Assembly: GCA_025453675.1 (NCBI GenBank)
Contig: JALOPW010000015.1
Location: 1-46,552 of the forward strand
Direction of reading: 5' to 3'
Length of the DNA stretch: 46,552 nt
Source: Methanolinea sp.
GTDB taxonomy: Archaea > Halobacteriota > Methanomicrobia > Methanomicrobiales > Methanospirillaceae
Below, one piece after another: positions 3,337 to 43,592 of the stretch (positions are counted from its first letter, which is position 1; every line of letters begins with the position of its first letter). The notes under the pieces are model-generated. The model ran no database searches and had not been told where the DNA came from. It saw only the letters and a list, made by a program, of their open reading frames with translations. Both the position numbers and the translations under genes were made by a program.

Positions 3337-5388
3337 ATGTCCATTGCCATGAAATTGATCTTCACACTGGTCTGTTGCGGGATTATCCCTGCAGTAACCA
3401 TCGCCGGGTCACCAACCGCCTCGTTTTCCGTGAATCCTCACTCGGGACACGCCCCTCTCAACGTCTCGTTCACGGATACGTCAACAGGTTCCCCAACGTC
3501 CTGGGCATGGTATTTCGGTGACGAGGATTACCTCCACACACAATGGATTGAGCAGAATGGAAGTGCCCCATGGTACGGCCGGTTCGGACACGCCAGTGTG
3601 GTGTTGCCGGACGGAAGCATCATCATCATGGGAGGCGGCGGCGGGTATAAAAACGACGTGTGGCGTTCTTCCGACCAGGGGAGTACCTGGAACGCACAGA
3701 ACACCTCTGCAGGATGGACAGGGCGTGAATTCCATACCAGTGTTGCGCTCCCGGATGGGAGCATCGTGCTGATGGGCGGGTATAACGGAGCCTATTTCAA
3801 AGACGTCTGGAGATCGGTAGACCAGGGGGTCACGTGGACAAGGCAGACTGCCAGTGCTCCCTGGCCTGCACGTGCGAAGCATGCGAGTGTTGCACTCCCG
3901 GACGGGAGCATCATCCTCATGGGGGGATTTAACGGCGCATATTTGGATGATGTCTGGCGGTCTGACGACCAGGGTGTGACATGGACCTGCATCACTGCCC
4001 ATGCCGGATGGTCCGCCCGTTACGGAATGACCAGTGTCGTGCTGCCTGATAATCGGATTGCCATCATGGGGGGGATGTACGACAGTAGCGGAGCGAAGTA
4101 CTCAAGAGACCTGTGGATCTCCGCCGACAGGGGATTGACATGGGACCTGCAGAGCTATTCTCCGGGAGGAGTGCCAATCCCACGACGCTATCACAGCGGT
4201 GTTGCGCTTCCGGATGGGAGCATTCTGATTACTGGAGGAAGCTCCTCTGGAACTGCATACCTGAATGAATTGGTGCACCTCCGGGAGCAAGGCACATCCT
4301 GGTCTGTCCGGACATACAGTCTGCCCGGAGGAGAAGGCAGGTATCATCACAGCACCGTTGCACTTCCTGATGGCTGCATCGTGCTGATGGGAGGACAGAC
4401 CCCGAGTGGGATCAAGAATGACGCATGGCGATTCTCAACTGCGAACGGAGCACGGCACCCTGAACATATCTACGAGGGGGCAGGCACCTATTCCGTGACC
4501 CTTCAGGTATACGATGGAACAGGTTCCAACTCCACGACAGGGGGCGCGTATATCACGGTCAGCCCTGAACTCTCAGCACCTGGACCGATTGGGATCACGC
4601 CTGGAAAGGGTCAGAATACGGGGAAAATCAACATCACGAACCTGTCAGGAGCGAATTTCGATGTGCTCAATACCCCATCAGTGAGACTGAACCGTACCGG
4701 CTATCCCGATATTCTGGCCGGAGACGTCACTACCCCTTCGTCATCCCAGATCACCTGCACACTTGACCTGACCGGACAGCCTTCCGGCCTCTGGAACGTG
4801 GTGGTGGAAAATCCTGATCGAAAGACCGGGATTCTTGAGAATGCATTCAACATTACGAAGGGACCGCCGACTGCCTCGTTCAGCGGTTCACCCACATCCG
4901 GAAAGACGCCGTGCAGCATCTCTTTCACTGACACCTCGACCGGTTCCCCAACCAGCTGGCGATGGACATTCGGAGACGGGAAAACCAGTGACCAGAGGAA
5001 CCCCGCCCATACCTATACCGTAGCGGGAACCTACACGGTGGCACTGACAGTGCAGAATGAAGGAGGAACGGATTCACTCATAAGAAACGGGTACATCACG
5101 GTTACTGCCGCCCGGCCTCCGGTGATCACCTCGTTCAGCCCGGTAACAATTATTCATGGAAAAACTATAAATGTGGCAATTATCGGCAATTATTTCCAGA
5201 AAGGTGCGACCGCGAAACTCGTTCAGGGGGCTGTTACAATTCCTGTGAAGATAAAAACCCTCACGCCCCCGTCAAAGATCGCGGGGTCGGTCACCATTCC
5301 CGCATCGGCGAGGGGGAAATACAGTCTTGTAGTCACCAATCCCGACGGAGGAACGTGCACGAGGGCGAATGCCATCACGATAACCTGA
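3337..5388 (+). CDS. Secreted PKD/Kelch-like repeat surface protein
   Basis: A 683-residue exported protein. The start at 3337 is chosen because AAAGGTGA lies four bases upstream and a signal peptide follows at once (MSIAMKLIFTLVCCG, hydrophobic to about residue 24). Order: first half of a PKD domain (ending SWAWYFGDED near residue 65); six Kelch/BNR-like repeats, each with a DGSIxxMGG core followed in most by a DVWRSxDQGxTW strand; the second half of the PKD domain (HIYEGAGTYSVTLQVYDG); an IPT-like Ig domain; a complete PKD domain with WTFGDGKTS; and a C-terminal IPT-like domain. No C-terminal membrane anchor is visible. PKD proteins of this kind are common on methanogen surfaces and probably act in adhesion or the cell envelope; ligand unknown. 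Confidence 0.85.
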   Translation: MSIAMKLIFTLVCCGIIPAVTIAGSPTASFSVNPHSGHAPLNVSFTDTSTGSPTSWAWYFGDEDYLHTQWIEQNGSAPWYGRFGHASVVLPDGSIIIMGGGGGYKNDVWRSSDQGSTWNAQNTSAGWTGREFHTSVALPDGSIVLMGGYNGAYFKDVWRSVDQGVTWTRQTASAPWPARAKHASVALPDGSIILMGGFNGAYLDDVWRSDDQGVTWTCITAHAGWSARYGMTSVVLPDNRIAIMGGMYDSSGAKYSRDLWISADRGLTWDLQSYSPGGVPIPRRYHSGVALPDGSILITGGSSSGTAYLNELVHLREQGTSWSVRTYSLPGGEGRYHHSTVALPDGCIVLMGGQTPSGIKNDAWRFSTANGARHPEHIYEGAGTYSVTLQVYDGTGSNSTTGGAYITVSPELSAPGPIGITPGKGQNTGKINITNLSGANFDVLNTPSVRLNRTGYPDILAGDVTTPSSSQITCTLDLTGQPSGLWNVVVENPDRKTGILENAFNITKGPPTASFSGSPTSGKTPCSISFTDTSTGSPTSWRWTFGDGKTSDQRNPAHTYTVAGTYTVALTVQNEGGTDSLIRNGYITVTAARPPVITSFSPVTIIHGKTINVAIIGNYFQKGATAKLVQGAVTIPVKIKTLTPPSKIAGSVTIPASARGKYSLVVTNPDGGTCTRANAITIT

Positions 5389-5402
5389 AAGGAGTCCTGA
5401 GA

Positions 5403-5447
5403 ATGAACGCAATCATTGAAGGGAAGACAGTACCTGGTGAAGAATGA
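5403..5447 (+). CDS. Possible 14-codon upstream ORF coupled to the next gene
   Basis: ATG at 5403 is preceded by a strong Shine-Dalgarno-like GAAAGGAG (5387-5394). The frame MNAIIEGKTVPGEE stops at TGA 5445-5447, overlapping the ATG (5444) of the following exported protein as ATGA. This geometry is what a translationally coupled leader ORF would have. It may equally be chance, or the leftover of an older start. Only the ribosome-binding site and the overlap support it. Confidence 0.3.
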   Translation: MNAIIEGKTVPGEE

Positions 5448-6421
5448 GAGATAGTAATGTCAGCTTCCCGTGGTTCATTGCAGTCATATTTGTTGTCGCA
5501 ATCACCATCCCGGTATGTGCGGACGTCCCGGTCAACGCAACGCTGGAAACGACCGGCATCTCCAGCATGACCAGCCTCGACTGCATGGGGTCGGTCACGC
5601 ACACGAACTCGCTTGCGTGGCAGCAGTCGAGCACATCGCTCCATGACCCGCCGCTCAACCCCGGCGGCATCTATACCGTGTGGTTTGACCAATTTGGTAA
5701 TCCCGTGTATGGCTGGACTGCTGACCCGATGCTTGCGGAGTTGCTTGGTGAGCCGATTCCTCCCGGGGAGGTCAGATACACCGCCGGATACACGGCGACT
5801 GCCCTCGCTGCGCAGGGAACCACCCACCTGACCAGGATGATTGATGTCGACACCGGCAACAAGGCCGGAAATGAGGAGAATATCGGGGTCACCACCCACC
5901 TGGCGTTCCTCGCAGAAAATGGCCTGGGACGTGTAACCTCTGATGAAGACCTTCTCATCGATGCTGCAGGTACCCATACCACTGCAGAGAGTTCCACGCT
6001 CTGCCCCTTTGCCATGGATGACAGCCTCTTCATTCCCCCGTTCTGCAACGTGGTGCAGATGGGCAGCAGCATCGATCTTTCGCAGGGATCGATCTCAACT
6101 TCTGCAGGTGCACGATTCGTGTCAAAGTCGAATGATGTTCCCGTGACGATGGATTATTCCATAACCGGAGAGGGGATCTCCTCCGCTGGCATTCCCCCGT
6201 ATGCTTCAGGCTCGATGAGTGCCTACATACATGCACACCTCCAGGAAGGCCGGATGGTGGATATCACCCCGTTCAACCCTGATGCACCCCCGGATACGCC
6301 GAGAGGATTTGTCCCGATCCAATCTGCAGACGTCACCTACTCCGAATCGACATCCGCAGTGGGGGCAATCAAACTGTTTACGAAGGAGATGCACTACCAG
6401 TCAGTGAGGAACCTTCTGTAA
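5444..6421 (+). CDS. Exported protein of unknown function
   Basis: A 325-residue protein with an N-terminal signal sequence (hydrophobic WFIAVIFVVAITIPVCA, residues about 10-26, cleavage likely after VCA). GGTGA lies three bases before the ATG. The mature part is rich in Ser/Thr/Gly and Asn with few charged residues, as in beta-rich extracellular proteins. I recognise no family, catalytic motif or C-terminal anchor. It follows the PKD/Kelch protein by 55 bp on the same strand, so the two are probably co-expressed parts of the cell surface. Confidence 0.75.
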   Translation: MRDSNVSFPWFIAVIFVVAITIPVCADVPVNATLETTGISSMTSLDCMGSVTHTNSLAWQQSSTSLHDPPLNPGGIYTVWFDQFGNPVYGWTADPMLAELLGEPIPPGEVRYTAGYTATALAAQGTTHLTRMIDVDTGNKAGNEENIGVTTHLAFLAENGLGRVTSDEDLLIDAAGTHTTAESSTLCPFAMDDSLFIPPFCNVVQMGSSIDLSQGSISTSAGARFVSKSNDVPVTMDYSITGEGISSAGIPPYASGSMSAYIHAHLQEGRMVDITPFNPDAPPDTPRGFVPIQSADVTYSESTSAVGAIKLFTKEMHYQSVRNLL

Positions 6422-6658
6422 ATCACCCGCGAGTGATCGGGGGGAGAGAGAATTCCTCGCATCCTTTCTCCCTTGTGGTTGCCCCGGATTCATATGATTC
6501 ACTGAATATCTCTTTTTCGGCTATTCGCCATTACGTGTGGGAGAGTACTCATCTTTTTTCGAGCGATATGTTTGGGCTGCTGTCCTTGACTCCCGGCGAT
6601 CTCCTGCGTCATAAAATATTTCAGAGTGGTCGGGGTATCAAGGGGGGTTGAATACCAC

Positions 6659-6729
6659 ATGAAACGCACATGAGACAGCCGGGTCACATGCCCCGCTGAT
6701 GAAAACCGCAGATGCGGTTTTCATACCAA
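6659..6729 (+). repeat. Dispersed hairpin repeat, copy A
   Basis: A 71-nt sequence that recurs in inverted orientation at 40843-40914. About nine positions differ, so identity is close to 87% by eye. It starts ATGAAACGCACAT and ends in a perfect 12-bp inverted repeat with a 2-nt loop: arms 6699-6710 and 6713-6724 (ATGAAAACCGCA and its complement). It is non-coding and lies between an exported-protein gene and a decayed gene copy. It resembles a REP- or MITE-like interspersed element. Confidence 0.75.
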
Positions 6730-6767
6730 CACACTATGAACTCCTTTCAGGATTTCGGACATAAATT

Positions 6768-6792
6768 ATGAAAATGGCGAAGCCATTTTCAT
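6768..6792. repeat. Perfect 11-bp inverted repeat (hairpin)
   Basis: Arms ATGAAAATGGC (6768-6778) and GCCATTTTCAT (6782-6792) around a 3-nt loop. It lies 39 nt after the hairpin of repeat copy A. Both hairpins begin ATGAAAA and end TTTTCAT, so they may be related units of one element. No neighbouring gene end explains it as a terminator. Confidence 0.6.
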
Positions 6793-6926
6793 TAGAAAAT
6801 GGTGGCGATTCGGTGACTATTTGCCACCTCACTCACATGCAGGTTTCTATTCACCCTTACAAAATTGCGAAGAAACTCTTTCTCTTACCCTTCTCCTCAC
6901 CGGAAACACCTGATTACTGAGAGTGT

Positions 6927-7444
6927 CTCCCCTTCCACCCTGCGTTCCAGGAGAATCTCGCTCACGAACCCATGACCCGTGAAGATGTCAAGAACACGGT
7001 CAAGGCCGGTACCCGAAGAGAGAAGGAGGAGCACCCGTTCCCCTGGAGCAAGAACCCTCTTCACCTGCCCGGCAAACTTCCGGATCGCAAGTGTGCCATC
7101 CCTCCCTCTGTCGAGGACAAATTCCAGCAGGTCATCTATCCTCTCCCCCGTGAGGGTGGGGAGGTTAAGGGGGGATTGAAGATCACCATGTCGAAGGATC
7201 CCCAGATACCTTTCAAGAGATCCCCACGAACCCCCACCTTCCCAAGAGTCAGAGTCTTGCCGACATCATAGGCGTTGATATCGGTGGCAAGTACTTCAGC
7301 CCTTTCACCGATACCTGTCGCGATATGCCATCTCCCGCACCCAATCTCCAGGACACGGTCTCTTGGTTTCACTTCGTGGAGTGTAGTTTAAAGGAGGATA
7401 TAAGTATCCTCGTGGGGTAAAGAGACCGAGGTTGGGTCATGGAG
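6927..7444 (-). pseudogene. Decayed copy of the Mtq2/HemK-like methyltransferase gene
   Basis: The minus strand aligns with the intact methyltransferase gene at 8239-8796, shifted by about 1.35 kb. A conserved stretch still reads VLEIGCGRWHIATG, ATDINAY and FDMVIFNPP, matching the SAM-binding and NPP motifs of the intact copy. The N-terminal segment (7370-7440) and the part after NPP are frameshifted, and stops interrupt the frame. Substitutions are spread through the whole length, so this is an old duplicate under no selection rather than a sequencing artefact. Confidence 0.8.
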
Positions 7445-33636: not shown

Positions 33637-36231
33637 ATGTCGCCGTCTTTGGATCTCCCCAAGAATTACGAGTTTTCGGAGGTGGAACGGCGCTGGCAGA
33701 GCGTCTGGCGCGACGAAGACCATTACTTTGACCCGGCATCCACAAAGCCAAAGTACATCATCGACACCCCGCCTCCCTATCCCACCGGCACTTTTCATAT
33801 CGGGAATGCCTTCAACTGGTGCTATATCGATTTTATCGCCCGGTACCGGAGGATGAGGAATTATAACGTCATGTTCCCCCAGGGCTGGGATTGCCACGGC
33901 CTGCCGACAGAGGTGAAGGTGGAGGAGATCCACGGCATCACCAAGAACGATGTCCCAAGAGAAGAGTTCCGCAGGATGTGCCGGGATCTGACACTCTCCA
34001 ATATCGAGAAGATGCGTCGTACCCTTCGCCGCATGGCCTTCTCTGTCGACTGGAGCCATGAGTACATCACCATGCTCCCTGCCTACTATGGAAAGACCCA
34101 GCTCTCTTTTTTGAAGATGCTGCAGGGCGGCTATATATACCAGAGTGAGCACCCGGTGAACTTCTGTACCAGGTGTGAGACCGCCATCGCCTTTGCTGAG
34201 GTGGCGTATGAGCCACGGGATACCACCCTCAATTACTTCGACTTCGATGGCCTGGAGATCGCCACCACCCGGCCCGAGCTGCTGGCAGCATGCGTCGCGG
34301 TGGCCGTCCATCCCGATGACGACCGTTACCTGGGCATGAGGGGCAGGAGCCTCACCGTCCCACTCTTCGGCTATTCCGTCCCCCTCATCACTGACCAGGC
34401 AGTTGACCCTGCGTTCGGGTCCGGTGCGGTGATGATCTGCACATTCGGGGACAAGCAGGACGTGCACTGGTGGAAGCAGCACAACCTGGACCTCCGGAAA
34501 GCAATCGACCGGCAGGGTCGTATGACCGGAATCGCCGGGAAATATACAGGGATGAAGACCTCCGCGTGCCGGAACGCCATCCTCGACGACATGAAAAGGG
34601 AGCAGATCCTCACCCGCCAGGAACTCCTCGAGCAACGGGTGGGAACCTGCTGGAGGTGCAAGACCCCTATCGAGATCATGAGCGAGCGGCAGTGGTTCGT
34701 GAAGATCACCCCTTCCGCCATCATGGAGGCCGCAAAGGAGATCACCTGGAATCCCGAGCATATGTTCCTGCGTATGGAGAACTGGGTGGAGCAGATGGAG
34801 TGGGACTGGTGCATATCCCGGCAGCGCATCTTCGCCACCCCTATCCCTGTCTGGTTCTGCACCTCCTGCGGGGAGATAGTGCTGCCTGCAGAAGAAGACC
34901 TCCCCATCGATCCCACCACTGACCGGCCTGATCACCCCTGTCCCCGTTGTGGTTCACGGGACTTTTCCGGGGAGGAGGATGTCCTGGATACCTGGATGGA
35001 CTCATCCATATCAGTCCTGAATGTCACAGGCTGGGACGGGGGATCCATTCCCCCGCTCTTCCCGGCCGAACTCCGGCCCCAGGGACACGACATCATCCGC
35101 ACCTGGGCATTCTATACTATCCTCCGGTCTGTGGCCCTCACCGGCTCGCGGCCATGGGACCAGATCCTTATCAACGGCATGGTGCTCGGGGAGGACGGCT
35201 ACAAGATGAGCAAGAGCCGTGGAAATATCATCTCCCCCGAGGAGATCATCGAGAAGTACGGGGCTGATGCGCTGCGCCAGTGGGCAGCCGCCGGTGCTGC
35301 CACAGGGTCAGACATCATGTTCAACTGGAACGATGTCGTTGCCGCATCCCGCTTCCAGACCAAGCTCTGGAACATTGCCCGTTTCGTTCATCTCCAGCTT
35401 GAGCGCCAGGAATATTCCCGTGAAGCGCCGGTGACCGCACTCGCGGACCGCTGGCTGATGGCCCGCCTCTCCGATACGGTGCGGGAGGTGACCGCCGCCA
35501 TGGAGGCCTGCCAGTTTGATCGGGCCCTGAAATCGATCAGGGAATTCTCCTGGGACGTGCTCGCAGACAATTATATCGAACTCGTCAAGGGGCGGCTCTA
35601 TGCACATGACACCAGCCGTGACGGGGCCTGCTGCGCATTGCATGCTGCACTTGACACCCTCTGCCGCCTGATGGCCCCGTTCACCCCCTATTTTGCCGAG
35701 GAGTGTTACTCGTATCTTGACCAGGGGAGCGTACATGCGAGCGGATGGCCGAAGGCTTTCACTGAGGACTCCGAGGTCCGGGCGAATGGCGACCTGCTGG
35801 TCAGAATCGTGGCAGAACTGCGCAGGTATAAACACGAGAAAGGCATGGCCCTCAATGCCCCGCTGGGCAGGGTGGCAATCTTCTCATCCCCCATCACTGA
35901 TGAGAGCGGGGACGCCGCAAGAGCCTTGAATGCCCCGCTGAAATGGCACAGAGAACCCCCTCACCTTGAGAGAGTCCCGGGAGAACTGCAGTTCAACATG
36001 GCGATCATAGGGCCGAGACTCAGGAAGGAGGCAGGCGCGTTCATGAAGGCTGCAAAGGCCCTTCCCCCTGCCCTTCAGGAGAACCCGCCTTCAACTATTG
36101 ACCTGGGGGGGATGGAGATTGCGGTGCCGGAGGGTGCGTTCTTCCTCCAGTACCGCTACCTTGAGGCAGGGGAGCAGGTGGATGTGCTCACCGTCGACGA
36201 CGTGATCGTGACGATTCACACCACTCCCTGA
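33637..36231 (+). CDS. valS: Valyl-tRNA synthetase
   Basis: An 864-residue class I synthetase. HIGH-type motif FHIGNAFNW near residue 52, the large CP1 editing insertion, zinc-type cysteine pairs ([22 protein letters not shown]) in the middle, and KMSKSRGN near residue 525. The tRNA-anticodon domain follows. It charges tRNA-Val and edits threonine. Start [20 protein letters not shown] matches the family. The last 44 nt overlap the convergent tmk gene. Confidence 0.95.
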
Positions 36232-36808
36232 TCACATGTTCTGCAAAGGAGGCAAGCTCCTCCTCTCCCTTCTCTGCATCCATAACCACGAAGCGTGAGG
36301 GATCTTCTCCGGCCAGGTGCAGGTAGTGTTCCTGGACCCGGGCCAGAAGGGGTGCTTCCTCGAAGTGTTCTTTTTTTCCAGCCTTTATTTTTCGCGATAG
36401 CGCCACTTCCACAGGGAGGACGAGGAGAAGGGTATGGTCTGGGGGAATGGTCCATCCATCATGCACAGCCCGCAGCCAGGCCAGCGGATCGGGGAGTATC
36501 CCCTCAAGTGTTGCCCACTGGTAGGCGTATCTGCTGTCAGTGTACCGGTCGGAGATGACAGGAGCGCCTCTCGCGAGCGCAGGTCGTATCACCGTCTCCA
36601 GATGGGCGGCGTGATCCGCGGCAAAGAGGAGAGCCTCAGTCACGGGGTCAACCTCCTCGGCAATGGCTCTTCGCACCTGTTCCCCGATCCAGGTGGACCC
36701 GGGCTCCCTGGTAAAGACCGGCCTGAGATCTGAAAGCGTGTGCTTGAGGGAGGCAAAGAGGGTACTCTTGCCGCTGCCGTCAATCCCCTCCAGGGTTATC
36801 AGGACCAT
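36188..36808 (-). CDS. tmk: Thymidylate kinase
   Basis: A 206-residue enzyme that phosphorylates dTMP to dTDP. P-loop [13 protein letters not shown] (residues about 6-18), [14 protein letters not shown] (DRx/REP region), [13 protein letters not shown], and a short lid ([12 protein letters not shown]). It overlaps valS by 44 nt at the 3' end and the upstream HisA/F-like gene by 10 nt, so it is probably co-expressed with the latter. Confidence 0.93.
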
Positions 36809-37513: not shown

Positions 37514-38200
37514 ATGCAATTATTGGTCAGCCCGAGGGACATTGAGGATGCCAGACGTTCTCTTGCCGCTGATATCGTGGACGTGAAGAAACCGTCCGAA
37601 GGATCTCTGGGAGCAAATTTCCCCTGGGTGGTGCGGAGCATCAAGGGCATTTCTGTAAAACCAGTCAGTGCCGCTATCGGGGATTTCGATTTTCGCCCGG
37701 GTGGAGCGGCCATGGCCGCATATGGGGCTGCATGCGCAGGGGCTGACTTTGTGAAGGTGGGGCTGATGTTCGATGGATCGGGGAGGGCCAGGGAGCTGAT
37801 CCAGGCAGTGGTCAGAGCCGTCAAGGAAGAGTTCCCCGAGAAGAAAGTGGTGATTGCCAGCTACTCGGATTACCGGCGGCTGGGAAGCATCTCGCCTTTC
37901 TCCATGTCACCACTGGCCGCGGAGGCAGGAGCTGATGTGGCGATGGTGGACACGGGGATAAAGGACGGACGAAGCACGTTTGAATTCATGAACGAAGAGT
38001 CGCTTGTGGAGTTTTGCACCACGAACCAGGAGAGGGGGTTGAAGACTGCCATCGCCGGTTCCCTCAAGTTTGAAGATATCCCTGCCCTCAAGAGGATTGG
38101 TCCCGATATCATCGGTGTCCGGGGGATGGTCTGCGGGGGAGACCGAAATTGCGGCATCCAGGAAGAACTGGTGGACCGGCTGGTCAGGATGGTGCATTAA
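37514..38200 (+). CDS. mfnB: (5-formylfuran-3-yl)methyl phosphate synthase
   Basis: A 228-residue TIM-barrel enzyme formerly called DUF556. Motifs include LLVSPRDIEDARRSL, IVDVKKPSEGSLGANFPWV (the catalytic lysine region), FDFRPGGAAMAAYGAA, GADFVKVGLMFDG, GADVAMVDTGIKDGRS and VRGMVCGGDR. It joins two glyceraldehyde-3-phosphates to the furan core of methanofuran, the C1 carrier for the first step of methanogenesis. This gene is the clearest methanogen marker in the window. guaB follows by 2 nt. Confidence 0.94.
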   Translation: MQLLVSPRDIEDARRSLAADIVDVKKPSEGSLGANFPWVVRSIKGISVKPVSAAIGDFDFRPGGAAMAAYGAACAGADFVKVGLMFDGSGRARELIQAVVRAVKEEFPEKKVVIASYSDYRRLGSISPFSMSPLAAEAGADVAMVDTGIKDGRSTFEFMNEESLVEFCTTNQERGLKTAIAGSLKFEDIPALKRIGPDIIGVRGMVCGGDRNCGIQEELVDRLVRMVH

Positions 38201-38202
38201 CC

Positions 38203-39669
38203 ATGTTCCGGGAGAAGCTTGAAGCCCCCCTGGCCCTGACCTTCGACGACGTCCTCCTCATTCCTGCCCCCTCCCTGATAGAGCCGAATGAAGCAGATAT
38301 CCAAAGCCGGTTCTCCCGCAATATCCCCCTGAACATGCCGCTCGTGAGTGCTGCCATGGACACGGTGACAGAATCTGCGATGGCAATGGCACTCGCCCGC
38401 GAGGGGGGGATAGGGGTGATCCACCGGAACATGTCCCCCGAACAGGAGATCGAGGAGGTGCACCGGGTAAAGCGGGCAGAGGAGCTGATAGAACGGAATG
38501 TCCTCTCCGTGAACCCCGGAACCAGCGTTTCGGATGTAGAGCGCCTGATGATGGAACATGGCATCGGGGGGGTGCCGGTACTCGAAGACGGAAAGATCGT
38601 GGGGATCGTCAGCCGGAGAGATGTCCGGGCGATAGCCTCCCGCCGGGGCTCCGAGAGCGTGCAGGCCATCATGACCAGGCAACCCATCACTGCCAGCGAG
38701 GATATCTCGATGGAACAGGCGCTCGAGATCATGTACACCAACAAGGTGGAGCGGCTACCGGTAGTGGACTTGGAAGGTCACCTGATAGGGATCATCACCA
38801 TGCAGGACATCCTGGAGAAACGCCAGTACCCGAATGCCATCCGGGATACAAAGAAGAAACTCAGGGTCGCAGCAGCGGTCGGACCTTTTGATATCGATCG
38901 CGCCAACCGCCTGGACGAGGCCGGGGTCGATGCCCTGATAGTTGACTGCGCCCATGGCCATAACCTCAACGTCGTGAAATCTATCCGGGATATCAAGGGA
39001 AGTGTGAAGGCGGACGTGGTGGCCGGGAATATAGCCACCAGGGAGGCGGCCCAGGACCTCATCGATACCGTCGACGGGTTGAAAGTGGGCATCGGCCCGG
39101 GATCCATCTGCACCACAAGGATCGTTGCCGGGGTGGGCGTACCCCAGATCACCGCGATCGCGAACGTTGCGGATGTGACACGGGGGACCGGTATCCCGGT
39201 CATCGCAGACGGAGGTATTCGCTACAGTGGTGATGTGGCCAAGGCAATCGCTGCTGGTGCAGACTGCGTGATGATCGGGAGCCTCTTTGCGGGTACCGAT
39301 GAGTCGCCGGGGAGGGTGATCACCATGAAAGGACGTCGTTACAAGCAGTACCGAGGCATGGGATCGCTCGGCGTGATGAGCGGCGGGATCTCGAGCGACC
39401 GCTACTTCCAGAAGAAGGAGATCGGGAAGACCAAGTTTGTCCCTGAAGGAGTAGAAGGAGTGACACCATATGTCGGCACTGTCTCCGACGTGGTCTACCA
39501 GCTTGTCGGAGGCCTGAAATCCGCCATGGGATACACGGGGTCCCGGACTATCAAGGAGATGCATGAGAAGACAAGGTTTGTGTGCATCACCGCTGCAGGG
39601 CATACTGAGAGCCACCCCCACAATATCATGATCACCGACGAGGCTCCCAATTACCGGATCTCGGATTGA
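38203..39669 (+). CDS. guaB: IMP dehydrogenase
   Basis: A 488-residue enzyme that oxidises IMP to XMP, the first committed step of GMP synthesis. TIM barrel with [13 protein letters not shown], a CBS pair insert (about residues 95-210), the catalytic cysteine loop [33 protein letters not shown], and the flap region [15 protein letters not shown]. Start ATG 38203, 2 nt after the mfnB stop. A longer in-frame ORF from 38149 overlaps mfnB and is not used. A T8 run follows the stop. Confidence 0.95.
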
Positions 39670-40946: not shown

Positions 40947-40954
40947 AAAAAAAA
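40947..40954 (-). terminator. T-run terminator immediately after nrdD
   Basis: Eight A residues on the plus strand, hence T8 in the nrdD transcript, only 4 nt after the TAA stop. This argues that the short nrdD is a settled gene end and not an assembly break within coding sequence. Confidence 0.5.
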
Positions 40955-40958
40955 GAAT

Positions 40959-43142
40959 TTACGCCTGAATCCTTCCCGCGCTGGACACCCACTCCGAGAT
41001 CCGGTTCTTGTCTTCACGTAACTCCTTGAACTGGTGGAGGGACACGGTGAGATCGCGGGTGAAGGCAAAGTACCCTATCTGGGTGGTTTTGCAGAGGTTC
41101 ATGGCCATCTCCATCAGGCCTCGCGGGTCAGGCCTCGACTCGCCGAGCCAGATGTGGAAGATATTTCCACCGTCGACGATGGGAAAGAAGACATGTTCGA
41201 TGGCCATCCTTTGTGCCATGGTCACATTGGCCCCCGGGGCGACGTGGGTCCCGTTGGTGTAGTAGATGGGGAGATCCCTGGTGGTGCCGAGCTCGGGGAG
41301 GGCTTTTTCAAGGTTCCCTTTTATCACTTTCATGGCCCCGTCGCGGTACTCCTTGTTGAGGAGATCGGCGACCGAAAAACGCTGCCCGGTGGTCTCTGCC
41401 GGGGTCCGGGCAAGCGCAATGGTCATGTGGTGACGTTTTGAGAGCTCGCGGGTGTAGAGCTCCATCTTGGTCATCGCAAGCACTGCCAGGGTGAAGGCCT
41501 CCTTCGACTCGTGCAGTTGGGACCCGATATGGTGCTGGACCATCTCGTTCACCCCCACCACCCCGATGGTATATACTAGCCCGTCCAGGTCAACGGCAAC
41601 CGATCCCCGCTCCCCGGTAGCGGGGTCTCGCGGCCGCTGCATGGCAAACGGCATCCTCCCCTGGGACCGGATGGTCTCAAGCCACCGCCTCTTGATTCTG
41701 AAGACCTCCACGCACATGTCCATGAGTGCCCGGAGCTCGGCAAAGAGCCGTTCGTTGTCCCCTTCGGCCCTGTATGCAGCACGCGGGCAGTTGAGGGAGA
41801 CCACCTGCCAGGACCCCATGGAGAAGTGCTTGCCATCCTTGAAGTATAGTTTTTCGTCGAACTCGGAATCCTGGTCTGCAACTGCTGAGAACTGGTAGGC
41901 ACAGCACTGGTAGCAGGAGATTCCCTTGCCGGCACCCCTATAGGCAGGTATCTGGTTGTCGTAATAGGGAGTACCGAACTTCGAGGCCAGCTCGAATGTG
42001 AGGAGGTAGAGGTCCTGGTAGGTGGGAAGGTCCGGGTGCGCATCGTTGAAGGCCTGGTCCTCTTTTAAAAACTCAGGCTCGATGCTGATCTCCGGTTTCG
42101 GGAAGCTGAAAGGTTTTCCCCAGGCATCTCCCTCCATCATAACCTCCATCAGCGCCTTGAAGAGGAGCCGCACCTCACGTTCCAGCTCGCCATAGGTGCG
42201 CCGGGGCCCGGACGCCCCGTCCCATACCTTCCCCCGGAACACGCAGGGCTTGTCTTTCCAGAGGGATGGCACCCCTGGGCTGAGCTGCACCGATGAGAAC
42301 ACGAGCTGCCCCCCGCGGGCCACCATCATCTGGGTCATCTCGTAGACAAACATCTGCATGAGCTGCTTGATCTCCCCGTAGTCCATCCCCTCGAAGTAGG
42401 GAGAAAGGAACGTGAGGAAGTTGTAATACCCCTGCCCACCGGCGAAATTGGTCTGGGCGCTCCCCAGCGCCTTGACCGCGTGCAGCACTGCCACCTCCGC
42501 CCTCCTGGCAGGCCCTGCCACCGATGCCTTGGTGCCGTTCCCATCAGGCATCAGGCCGTAGTAAAAGAAGTAGCGGAGGTCCCAATCCTGGCAAAAAGGT
42601 CTTGTTCCAAAGTATTCCAGATCGTGGATGTGAATGTCCCCGGAGAGGTGGTGGTCCGCAAGGTGGGGGGGCAGTTGCAGAAGGTATTGCTCTTTGCTGA
42701 TCTTGTCAGCCTTCTTTTTATGGGAGGTCTCTGCATTCTCCTGGAGGTTGGCATTGTCCTTGGCCTCGAATCCCCGGCCGACATCGATCAGGTGCGCATC
42801 AAAGACCGGTGTCCCCACCCTGGTGCAGACATTCCGGTATTGCACCATCCCCCTCTCCAGGAGGGTGATGTTCATGATCTCCCGGATGAGGGGTCCGCTC
42901 AGGGTGCGAAGCTCCATGGACTTGATCCTCTCCTCCACAAGCTTTGCGATCTCCTGGGCCACCTCCTCTGACGCGCTCTCGTACCCGTAGAACGTGGAGA
43001 CGAGCTTCGTCTCCTCCACAATCTGGCGCACAATCCTTTGCCGGTCCCACTCCAGGATATGCCCGTCCGAGGTCCTGACAGGGGGCATGCTGGGGATGAA
43101 TATCCCATCAAGAGTGGACTGGCGCGTATCCCGGGTGGGCAT
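40959..43142 (-). CDS. nrdD: Class III anaerobic ribonucleoside-triphosphate reductase lacking the C-terminal glycyl-radical segment
   Basis: A 727-residue protein that begins with an ATP-cone (VRTSDGHILEWDRQRIVRQI, about residues 20-110) and continues with NrdD barrel motifs: GDIHIHDLEYFGTRPFCQ, SAQTNFAGGQG, SPGVPSLW, SCYQCCAYQ, NCPRAAYRA, and near the end TTQIGYFAFTRDLTVSLHQF. Class III enzymes normally end with a zinc-binding CxxC pair and a glycyl-radical motif of the RVxGY type. Here the chain stops GRIQA with neither. It is coupled to an upstream redoxin gene (TAATG). The reductase makes dNTPs without oxygen; how this version forms a radical is unclear. Confidence 0.88.
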   Translation of the reverse strand: MPTRDTRQSTLDGIFIPSMPPVRTSDGHILEWDRQRIVRQIVEETKLVSTFYGYESASEEVAQEIAKLVEERIKSMELRTLSGPLIREIMNITLLERGMVQYRNVCTRVGTPVFDAHLIDVGRGFEAKDNANLQENAETSHKKKADKISKEQYLLQLPPHLADHHLSGDIHIHDLEYFGTRPFCQDWDLRYFFYYGLMPDGNGTKASVAGPARRAEVAVLHAVKALGSAQTNFAGGQGYYNFLTFLSPYFEGMDYGEIKQLMQMFVYEMTQMMVARGGQLVFSSVQLSPGVPSLWKDKPCVFRGKVWDGASGPRRTYGELEREVRLLFKALMEVMMEGDAWGKPFSFPKPEISIEPEFLKEDQAFNDAHPDLPTYQDLYLLTFELASKFGTPYYDNQIPAYRGAGKGISCYQCCAYQFSAVADQDSEFDEKLYFKDGKHFSMGSWQVVSLNCPRAAYRAEGDNERLFAELRALMDMCVEVFRIKRRWLETIRSQGRMPFAMQRPRDPATGERGSVAVDLDGLVYTIGVVGVNEMVQHHIGSQLHESKEAFTLAVLAMTKMELYTRELSKRHHMTIALARTPAETTGQRFSVADLLNKEYRDGAMKVIKGNLEKALPELGTTRDLPIYYTNGTHVAPGANVTMAQRMAIEHVFFPIVDGGNIFHIWLGESRPDPRGLMEMAMNLCKTTQIGYFAFTRDLTVSLHQFKELREDKNRISEWVSSAGRIQA

Positions 43143-43411
43143 TATGTACCCTCGAGAAAATGGAGGACCTTCTCTTCCTGGAGTGCACCCGCAGCGAACA
43201 TATCGGCAGAGGTGAGAAACCTGGCGGCCTGCTGGAGGACCGGGGCCTCGGTGACGAAAATGCCGTTGATACGCAGTTCTGTGAGCGATTCTGCGGTGGA
43301 AAGATCCCGCTCCTGGAATGGCATGGCCTTCTGCCTGAGGTAGTGCTTCAGGGTATCGCAGTTCGGACAGAATTCCAGTGTATATACAATTAGGTCGTTG
43401 GTTGTGCTCAA
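43142..43411 (-). CDS. Glutaredoxin/NrdH-like redoxin
   Basis: About 89 residues of thioredoxin-fold protein. Active site CPNC in LIVYTLEFCPNCDTLKHYL (residues about 7-25), then GIFVTEAPVLQQ in the cis-proline position. The stop overlaps the nrdD start as TAATG, so it is almost certainly the reductase's electron donor; methanogen class III enzymes are known to use such redoxins rather than formate. The start is taken as TTG 43411 (GGGGGG-rich stretch upstream); the upstream AT-rich in-frame extension to 43525 looks like promoter. Confidence 0.8.
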   Translation of the reverse strand: MSTTNDLIVYTLEFCPNCDTLKHYLRQKAMPFQERDLSTAESLTELRINGIFVTEAPVLQQAARFLTSADMFAAGALQEEKVLHFLEGT

Positions 43412-43592
43412 ATGCGTCCCCCCGATAATCAGCTGAATCAATGATAGCTCTTCCGTGAAAAAATATTTGTTGATCTGATCGTAATTGTAACAGCAGAAAT
43501 AAGAATTTTCAGGGAAAAGACACATTAAAACCGGGATAGATTATGAACCACCAGACGGTCCAAGAATGTGAGCCGGCGCGGGAAGTGTGCTG

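Follow-up and report, generated by a model that had tools for sequence, protein, structure and literature searches.

To our knowledge, every characterised class III ribonucleotide reductase has its glycyl radical built into the catalytic chain, NrdD. Here, we analyse an nrdD gene of Methanolinea sp. (order Methanomicrobiales) located at 40959..43142 on the minus strand of contig JALOPW010000015.1 (assembly GCA_025453675.1), the 46,552 nucleotides of which are referred to below as the window. Its product of 727 amino acids (aa) consists of the barrel only and ends ahead of the glycyl-radical domain (GRD). We propose a two-chain class III reductase in which this product is the catalytic subunit and the glycyl radical would reside on a separate 128-aa subunit, a reading to which we assign a probability of about 0.88.

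The canonical NrdDs (1h78, 4coi, and 8p23, which we take to come from phage T4, Thermotoga maritima, and Prevotella copri, respectively) share with this system the barrel homology over positions 1-510 of the family profile, the conserved cysteines, an NrdG-type activase, and an adjacent redoxin gene. However, their GRD is the C-terminus of the same chain, whereas here the GRD is encoded by its own gene on a different contig and carries an extra cysteine-rich half at its N-terminus. The nearest full-length relatives, fused NrdDs from other families of the phylum, are ~64-71% identical to the window NrdD and have a GRD of their own.

Stand-alone GRDs have been described for a different glycyl-radical enzyme. 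According to the passages of PMC8683613 that deal with them, YfiD/GrcA and T4 Y06I had by 2021 been validated as spare parts for pyruvate formate-lyase (PFL) only, and the authors consider that spare parts might exist for other glycyl-radical enzymes. In both cases, a small GRD protein, found in cells and viruses, completes a larger catalytic chain (putatively so in our system). However, those GRDs are of the PFL type and ours is of the NrdD type, and YfiD/GrcA is a repair part, while in our system the partner lacks a GRD and the small protein is predicted to be obligatory.

The radical of class II reductases is made by B12. Their split form, NrdJa/NrdJb, as outlined in parts of PMC4520616 and PMC9669993, is similar in having a barrel chain plus a second chain with C-terminal zinc-finger domains, but it belongs to class II and the second chain has no stable glycyl radical; the account of split class II enzymes excerpted from PMC9669993 makes no mention of a split class III. 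Phage nrdD genes can also be coded in more than one piece, being split by introns, inteins, or unexplained fragmentation (excerpts of PMC3653736 and PMC12363816). Those breaks fall inside one gene region and many of them are insertions, while here the coding sequence is broken between two domains and its second piece is found at another place in the genome. Sections of PMC9694453 describe an nrdH-nrdD-nrdG operon in M. mazei, in which the expression of nrdD and nrdG groups with that of viral genes upon MetSV infection, nrdH being close by. The redoxin gene is next to nrdD, as in our window, but nrdG is part of the operon there and located elsewhere here, and the M. mazei NrdD has its own GRD. 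Among the papers listed by searches of the full-text literature, with subscription journals mostly outside their coverage, no description of a two-chain class III reductase was seen.

The end of the nrdD gene

The original prediction stated that this NrdD lacks the C-terminal CxxC pair and RVxGY motif and that the gene truly appears to end there, and both statements were borne out. The window NrdD matches class III models only, with no match to the barrel of the class II (B12-dependent) enzymes. Pfam NRDD (PF13597) covers it over profile positions 1-510 of 562 (444 bits, cut-off 26.2) and TIGR02487 over positions 1-529 of 581 (467 bits, cut-off 326). Since the NRDD match ends at 510 of 562, the absent piece is the GRD, which in class III enzymes closes the catalytic chain and provides its zinc cysteines and RVxGY. 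Because a GRD protein of 128 aa is present in trans, we class the system as a two-chain variant, distinct from a canonical NrdD. When aligned with 15 fused relatives, the window NrdD halts 25 poorly conserved residues past TQIGYFAFTRDLTVSL, and the fused proteins run on past its end into a C...CPxC...SRVTGY...WN domain. Its chain finishes in ...TTQIGYFAFTRDLTVSLHQFKELREDKNRISEWVSSAGRIQA, followed by a TAA stop codon, ATTC, and a run of eight T on the minus strand (40947..40954) read directly 4 nt past the stop; this terminator-like run agrees with a true gene end. No ATP-cone was reported for the window NrdD at E <= 0.001, though its residues 25-265 align to residues 12-251 of 8p23, which presumably carries an N-terminal ATP-cone.

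A frameshift or assembly error near 40960 that would restore the motif was rejected, since no reading frame of the window contains a glycyl motif and related loci stop at the same position. When all six frames of the window were scanned for R[VIL]xGY, two chance sites appeared; neither has a preceding CxxC nor a following [WF]NxGK, hence no frameshifted motif is hidden nearby. In all 30 related split loci (L007-L036), the chain ends 39 to 47 residues from the first residue of the QIGYFAF-type motif (exactly 40 in 20 of them), and none has a glycyl motif in its C-terminal tail.

The short end, which the earlier note suggested comparing with relatives, is common to the order. NRDD matches were present in 203 of the 232 genomes sampled from the order, and none of the 150 barrel places listed for them extends past profile position 524 of 562. 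As the listing was ordered by E-value, a full-length NrdD would have ranked at the top, and there was none among the matches listed. The same limit applies to open frames of ~730 aa and to those of ~1,200 aa with a match broken near profile position 53. Outside the order, the NrdDs among the matches listed for the phylum sample (392 genomes) end at positions 560-562, except for G439 (485) and G485 (492); family f7, with lower scores, is fused too wherever the whole gene was seen (6 of 7 genomes).

Many barrel-only NrdDs lie in long frames, of ~1,200 to 1,670 aa, in which the match is interrupted near position 53 (e.g., G051:C15:622793 and G046:C1:340357-344883, the latter broken also at position 263), probably because of inteins. 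One single-contig genome has two equal-scoring barrel-only places ~16 kb apart (G052:C1:285076 and 300796), and another genome with the split form has an extra, divergent fused NrdD in a frame of 569 aa (G120:C1:590703-592373, L126).

A stand-alone glycyl-radical protein in cells and viruses

The Methanolinea genome (1.84 Mb in 53 contigs, 94% complete) has only two places with NRDD matches, the barrel itself and contig C24, where the match covers positions 506-562 (54 bits). The latter corresponds to a protein of 128 aa (C24:44308-44691, plus strand) encoded downstream of pyrF, which is the kind of stand-alone short protein with CxxC and RVxGY that had been suggested as a check. It opens with MEKYPWYCMHWSEEQ and has a cysteine-rich, zinc-ribbon-like first half with CxxC pairs, followed by CPLCGAPVCPECGS and SRVTGYLQEVSGWNAGKQQELKDR, ending in an NrdD-type GRD (residues 74-125) with RVTGYL. 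Its strong family matches are all C-termini of NrdD models, those to zinc ribbons being weak, and no PFL-type GRD family appears among its 13 Pfam (E <= 1) and 11 NCBIfam matches. The best match among solved structures is likewise an NrdD C-terminus (8p23, residues 697-738, E 4e-7). The second full-length NrdD that would have made the window copy a simple pseudogene was not found in this 94% complete genome. Coexistence with a full-length partner, as expected of a spare part, is seen only for relatives outside the order.

Both pieces are conserved across the order. The 128-aa query matched in 201 of the 232 genomes, with open frames of 120-256 aa among the matches listed, or in 191 of 207 once genus g25 is set aside (G020-G044, 25 genomes of family f3, with G037 and G039 assigned by their numbers). 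Outside this genus, all 25 single-contig genomes have both the barrel and the GRD. Among the best 80 of 137 relatives, the GRD was found in records titled Methanolinea, Methanoregula, Methanofollis, Methanospirillum, Methanoculleus, and others. Within g25, an NRDD match is lacking from all 25 genomes; the GRD query gave weak matches in 10 (E 2e-6 to 7e-4), and a profile search of nine sampled genomes detected no GRD, so that the barrel and a convincing GRD are jointly absent from this genus.

The residues expected to be functional are nearly invariant. C184, C410, C413, and C414 are kept in all 25 split and all 15 fused NrdD barrels aligned, and would correspond to the active-site positions on strand 1 and the finger loop, including the putative thiyl-forming residue. 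In the GRD protein, the zinc-ribbon cysteines and the stretch Q97-L105, including SRVTGYL, are invariant in the 16 sequences aligned (from the 30 stand-alone loci L037-L066, with that of Methanolinea taken from L002). A further cysteine, C684, is present in 25 of 25 split and 0 of 15 fused NrdDs. The idea that it forms a disulfide was weakened because a fused viral NrdD (L222) has a cysteine there too.

The strongest single piece of evidence that barrel and GRD belong together comes from a virus. To scan viral contigs, we used as queries the alignment of GRD proteins, the NrdD of the window, and one GRD protein of a genome not belonging to the order. On one 135-kb contig (L225, IMGVR_UViG_3300044712_001062), we found four genes at 4349-7260, each overlapping the next: a stand-alone GRD (4349-4780, Pfam NRDD 508-562), a glutaredoxin-like redoxin with CPNC (4777-4998, Pfam Glutaredoxin), a barrel-only NrdD (4992-7007, Pfam NRDD 1-513 plus ATP-cone), and the catalytic chain of a ferredoxin:thioredoxin reductase (FeThRed_B; open reading frame [ORF] 6955-7260, scanned from 6991). 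An ORF of the cytidine/dCMP-deaminase family follows this gene run.

Besides that of L221 (see below), stand-alone GRDs were also found on four other viral contigs (L219:3694-4074, L220:4998-5408, L228:2377-2727, and L229:4713-5183). No barrel gene was noticed in the stretches of these contigs that were viewed, in which no systematic search for one was made, and their GRDs resemble the spare-part protein of phage T4. Three more contigs (L230-L232) have short GRDs of another type, CE[VI][YW]SR[VI][VM]GY. Searches with tblastn for the split in isolate phages and plasmids gave partial matches only. In phages, among the 20 of 27 matches listed, several of them from unannotated records, the annotated features were anaerobic-reductase genes except for one hypothetical protein, and a further search gave five records, two annotated as reductase and three without annotation. 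On plasmids, tblastn gave two records, one place lying in nrdD and the other without an annotated feature.

Proposed mechanism and competing explanations

The two-chain class III variant extends across the order, and we infer its catalytic logic from homology. A radical-SAM activase would abstract a hydrogen from the glycine of RVTGY on the GRD protein, which would dock in the barrel at the place occupied by the C-terminal domain of an ordinary NrdD. The glycyl radical could then generate a thiyl radical on a finger-loop cysteine (region C410-C414), and the NrdH-like redoxin encoded beside nrdD would re-reduce the active site. The GRD part would be obligatory here, given that the genome has no full-length NrdD and that the barrels listed for the order are short. 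The original prediction listed a separate protein supplying the radical as one of its options, and it is this option that is strongly supported by a stand-alone GRD in the genome and the order and by the presence of an NrdG2-type activase. Its description of a reductase without its glycyl-radical tail holds for the gene, whereas the enzyme system as a whole probably does have one.

The best candidate for the activase is an NrdG2 on contig C29 (L004:1432-2274; TIGR02495, 134.2 bits, cut-off 131.15), which may pair with the split NrdD. The nrdG that had been suggested as a check was found in this candidate form, while no place in the genome scores above the cut-off of the classic NrdG model, TIGR02491. 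A radical-SAM protein on contig C41 (L096:6701-9309) was considered as NrdG and set aside in favour of NrdG2, since it scored below the cut-off of 126.1 (86.7 bits in the genome search, 85.8 with hmmscan) and its cluster, in which DUF1257 and an AAA ATPase bearing a CDC48-like domain come after it, looks different. The likely reductant of NrdD is a glutaredoxin-fold, NrdH-like redoxin with a CPNC motif (43142..43525, minus strand; PF00462, 26.2 bits, cut-off 22.9), the stop codon of which shares one base with the start codon of nrdD. Its coordinates run from the most upstream ATG, at 43525, and the true start is probably internal. A similar redoxin ORF flanks the barrel in 29 of 30 split loci, with CP[NK]C in 26.

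Several observations weigh against this two-chain reading. The genome also encodes a separate class II B12-dependent NrdJ of 550 aa (TIGR02504, 620 bits, cut-off 400), so the class III enzyme may be dispensable. In host genomes, the GRD gene and nrdD are not neighbours; instead, a pyrF-like ORF is found upstream of the GRD gene in 78 of 80 loci, mostly within 260 bases (60 distances). Sixteen of the 207 genomes outside g25 have no GRD match, all of them drafts of 70-570 contigs and 62-93% completeness, and the joint absence from g25 may reflect a single loss event. The NrdG2 score is only just above its cut-off, and the whole gene set is known from one viral contig, two further scans restricted to close relatives having given no second. 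The AlphaFold model of the GRD protein is middling (mean predicted local distance difference test [pLDDT] score 76.7, falling to 59-68 over residues 101-128), and a comparison with the PDB gave no match. Finally, some stand-alone relatives look damaged, one outside the order (L106) and one viral (L221). In the latter (L221:5070-5396), about a dozen extra residues interrupt the motif after RVTG.

Some of these points could be accommodated if the barrel-only NrdD were a remnant devoid of radical chemistry, with the GRD protein doing another job (e.g., as a zinc-ribbon regulator) and NrdJ performing all the reduction, as suggested by the presence of NrdJ itself, by a genus that lives without NrdD, and by the separation of the nrdD and GRD genes in host genomes. 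However, a remnant would hardly agree with a barrel and a GRD that are both kept across the order with near-invariant functional residues, that are missing from the same genus, and that a viral contig keeps as overlapping genes together with two redox partners; we consider it very improbable. The inactive or truncated copy entertained by the earlier note is disfavoured too, by the order-wide conservation and by the conserved barrel cysteines. Scarcely any more weight, if not slightly less, can be given to the GRD protein as a mere repair part, like YfiD for pyruvate formate-lyase, with the barrel normally obtaining its radical otherwise. Nine of the ten genomes fetched from outside the order do combine a related stand-alone GRD with a full-length NrdD, and spare parts for other glycyl-radical enzymes were proposed as possible in the portion of PMC8683613 cited above. 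Nevertheless, the Methanolinea genome has no full-length NrdD to repair, and every barrel among the matches listed for the order is a short one (the extra 569-aa NrdD of G120 being of another kind). The two-chain reading implies that an order of methanogens seems to keep its glycyl radical on a separate small subunit, and it makes testable the installation of a glycyl radical on a free domain that acts in trans as its normal state, beyond the repair of oxygen damage.

Origin of the split and neighbouring genes

The built-in GRD was probably lost once, in the ancestor of the order, since the barrel trees place the split proteins in one group. In a midpoint-rooted tree of 25 of the 34 uninterrupted split barrels and 15 fused ones, the split proteins form one group among the fused (Shimodaira-Hasegawa approximate likelihood ratio test [SH-aLRT] 100), next to the fused L072 (86). 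In a second tree, with 14 of those 25 split barrels and rooted on two fused proteins, the split group has a support of 95/100, its nearest relative is not settled, and the barrel of viral L225 is neither inside the group nor excluded from it (approximately unbiased [AU] test, p 0.41).

Stand-alone relatives of the GRD are present in short open frames in at least 12 genomes outside the order, and a full-length NrdD was seen alongside in 9 of the 10 fetched (L097-L106; for G513, an NrdD was not among the matches listed). In a GRD tree that includes the zinc site, 32 stand-alone proteins, cellular and viral, split from 23 fused ones at 99/99, a value obtained with non-homologous upstream columns and a bootstrap that had not converged. 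With the 40 core columns alone, the stand-alone grouping falls to 81/78, and the tree that places the GRDs of the order on the fused side is marginally disfavoured (AU p 0.062). The GRD trees omitted L106, which diverges from the family past the motif, and L221, with its insertion in the motif; the core-column tree also omitted L126. Another alignment comprised 42 of 83 loci, after dropping L139 and L144, in which a stop codon occurs early in the frame. All 34 stand-alone GRDs of the set share a compact CxxC-x4-CxxC-x2-H site, as do three other GRDs from viruses (L225, L228, and L229), but none of the 23 fused NrdDs has it. Eleven of the latter have three cysteines in the zinc-site region (L071, L073, L075, L076, L081, L083, L115-L117, L119, and L120), versus the four in compact arrangement of the stand-alone proteins.

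Because the GRD trees and the compact zinc site set the stand-alone GRDs apart from the fused ones, it is favoured, though not proven, that the GRD subunit of the order came from a pre-existing stand-alone family and replaced the built-in domain. The other origin, which would leave the function proposed above unchanged, is that the ancestral nrdD simply underwent fission and that its detached tail, relocated in the genome, became the GRD protein. The short core of 40 columns, the modest 81/78, and an AU test that does not clearly reject the GRDs of the order on the fused side leave room for it; the 99/99 separation, with its alignment and bootstrap caveats, and a compact zinc site exclusive to stand-alone proteins in this comparison speak against it. 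Fission is accordingly an origin that we take seriously while betting against it. Extending the idea of replacement, the free-standing NrdD-type GRDs of archaea of this phylum and of viruses might constitute an exchangeable radical cofactor, which in the ancestor of the order would have passed from repair part to compulsory subunit, charged apart from the catalytic chain. Viruses would carry either the GRD, able to supply the host enzyme, or the full kit of GRD, redoxin, barrel, and reductase. This broader scenario is tentative, its chances falling a little below even. The two-chain system itself suggests that spare-part proteins exist for ribonucleotide reductase, can turn obligatory, and serve viruses.

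A few stand-alone GRDs outside the order have features of their own. The frame at L106:4819-5160 (G285) departs from the family soon after RVTGYL, in a genome with a full-length NrdD, and is possibly decaying. In 2 of the 10 loci, an ORF for a FeThRed catalytic chain is close to the GRD (L097:4941-5231, with a PF02943 match of 88 bits, and L098:5894-6190). The 88-aa GRD frame at L104:4712-4975 (G503) is beside a large primase-like ORF and a recombinase-like one, which by eye gives the region the look of a mobile element. Within 5 kb of nrdD in the window, there are further genes of nucleotide metabolism, for a dTMP kinase (36188-36808, minus strand) and an IMP dehydrogenase (38149-39669, plus strand).

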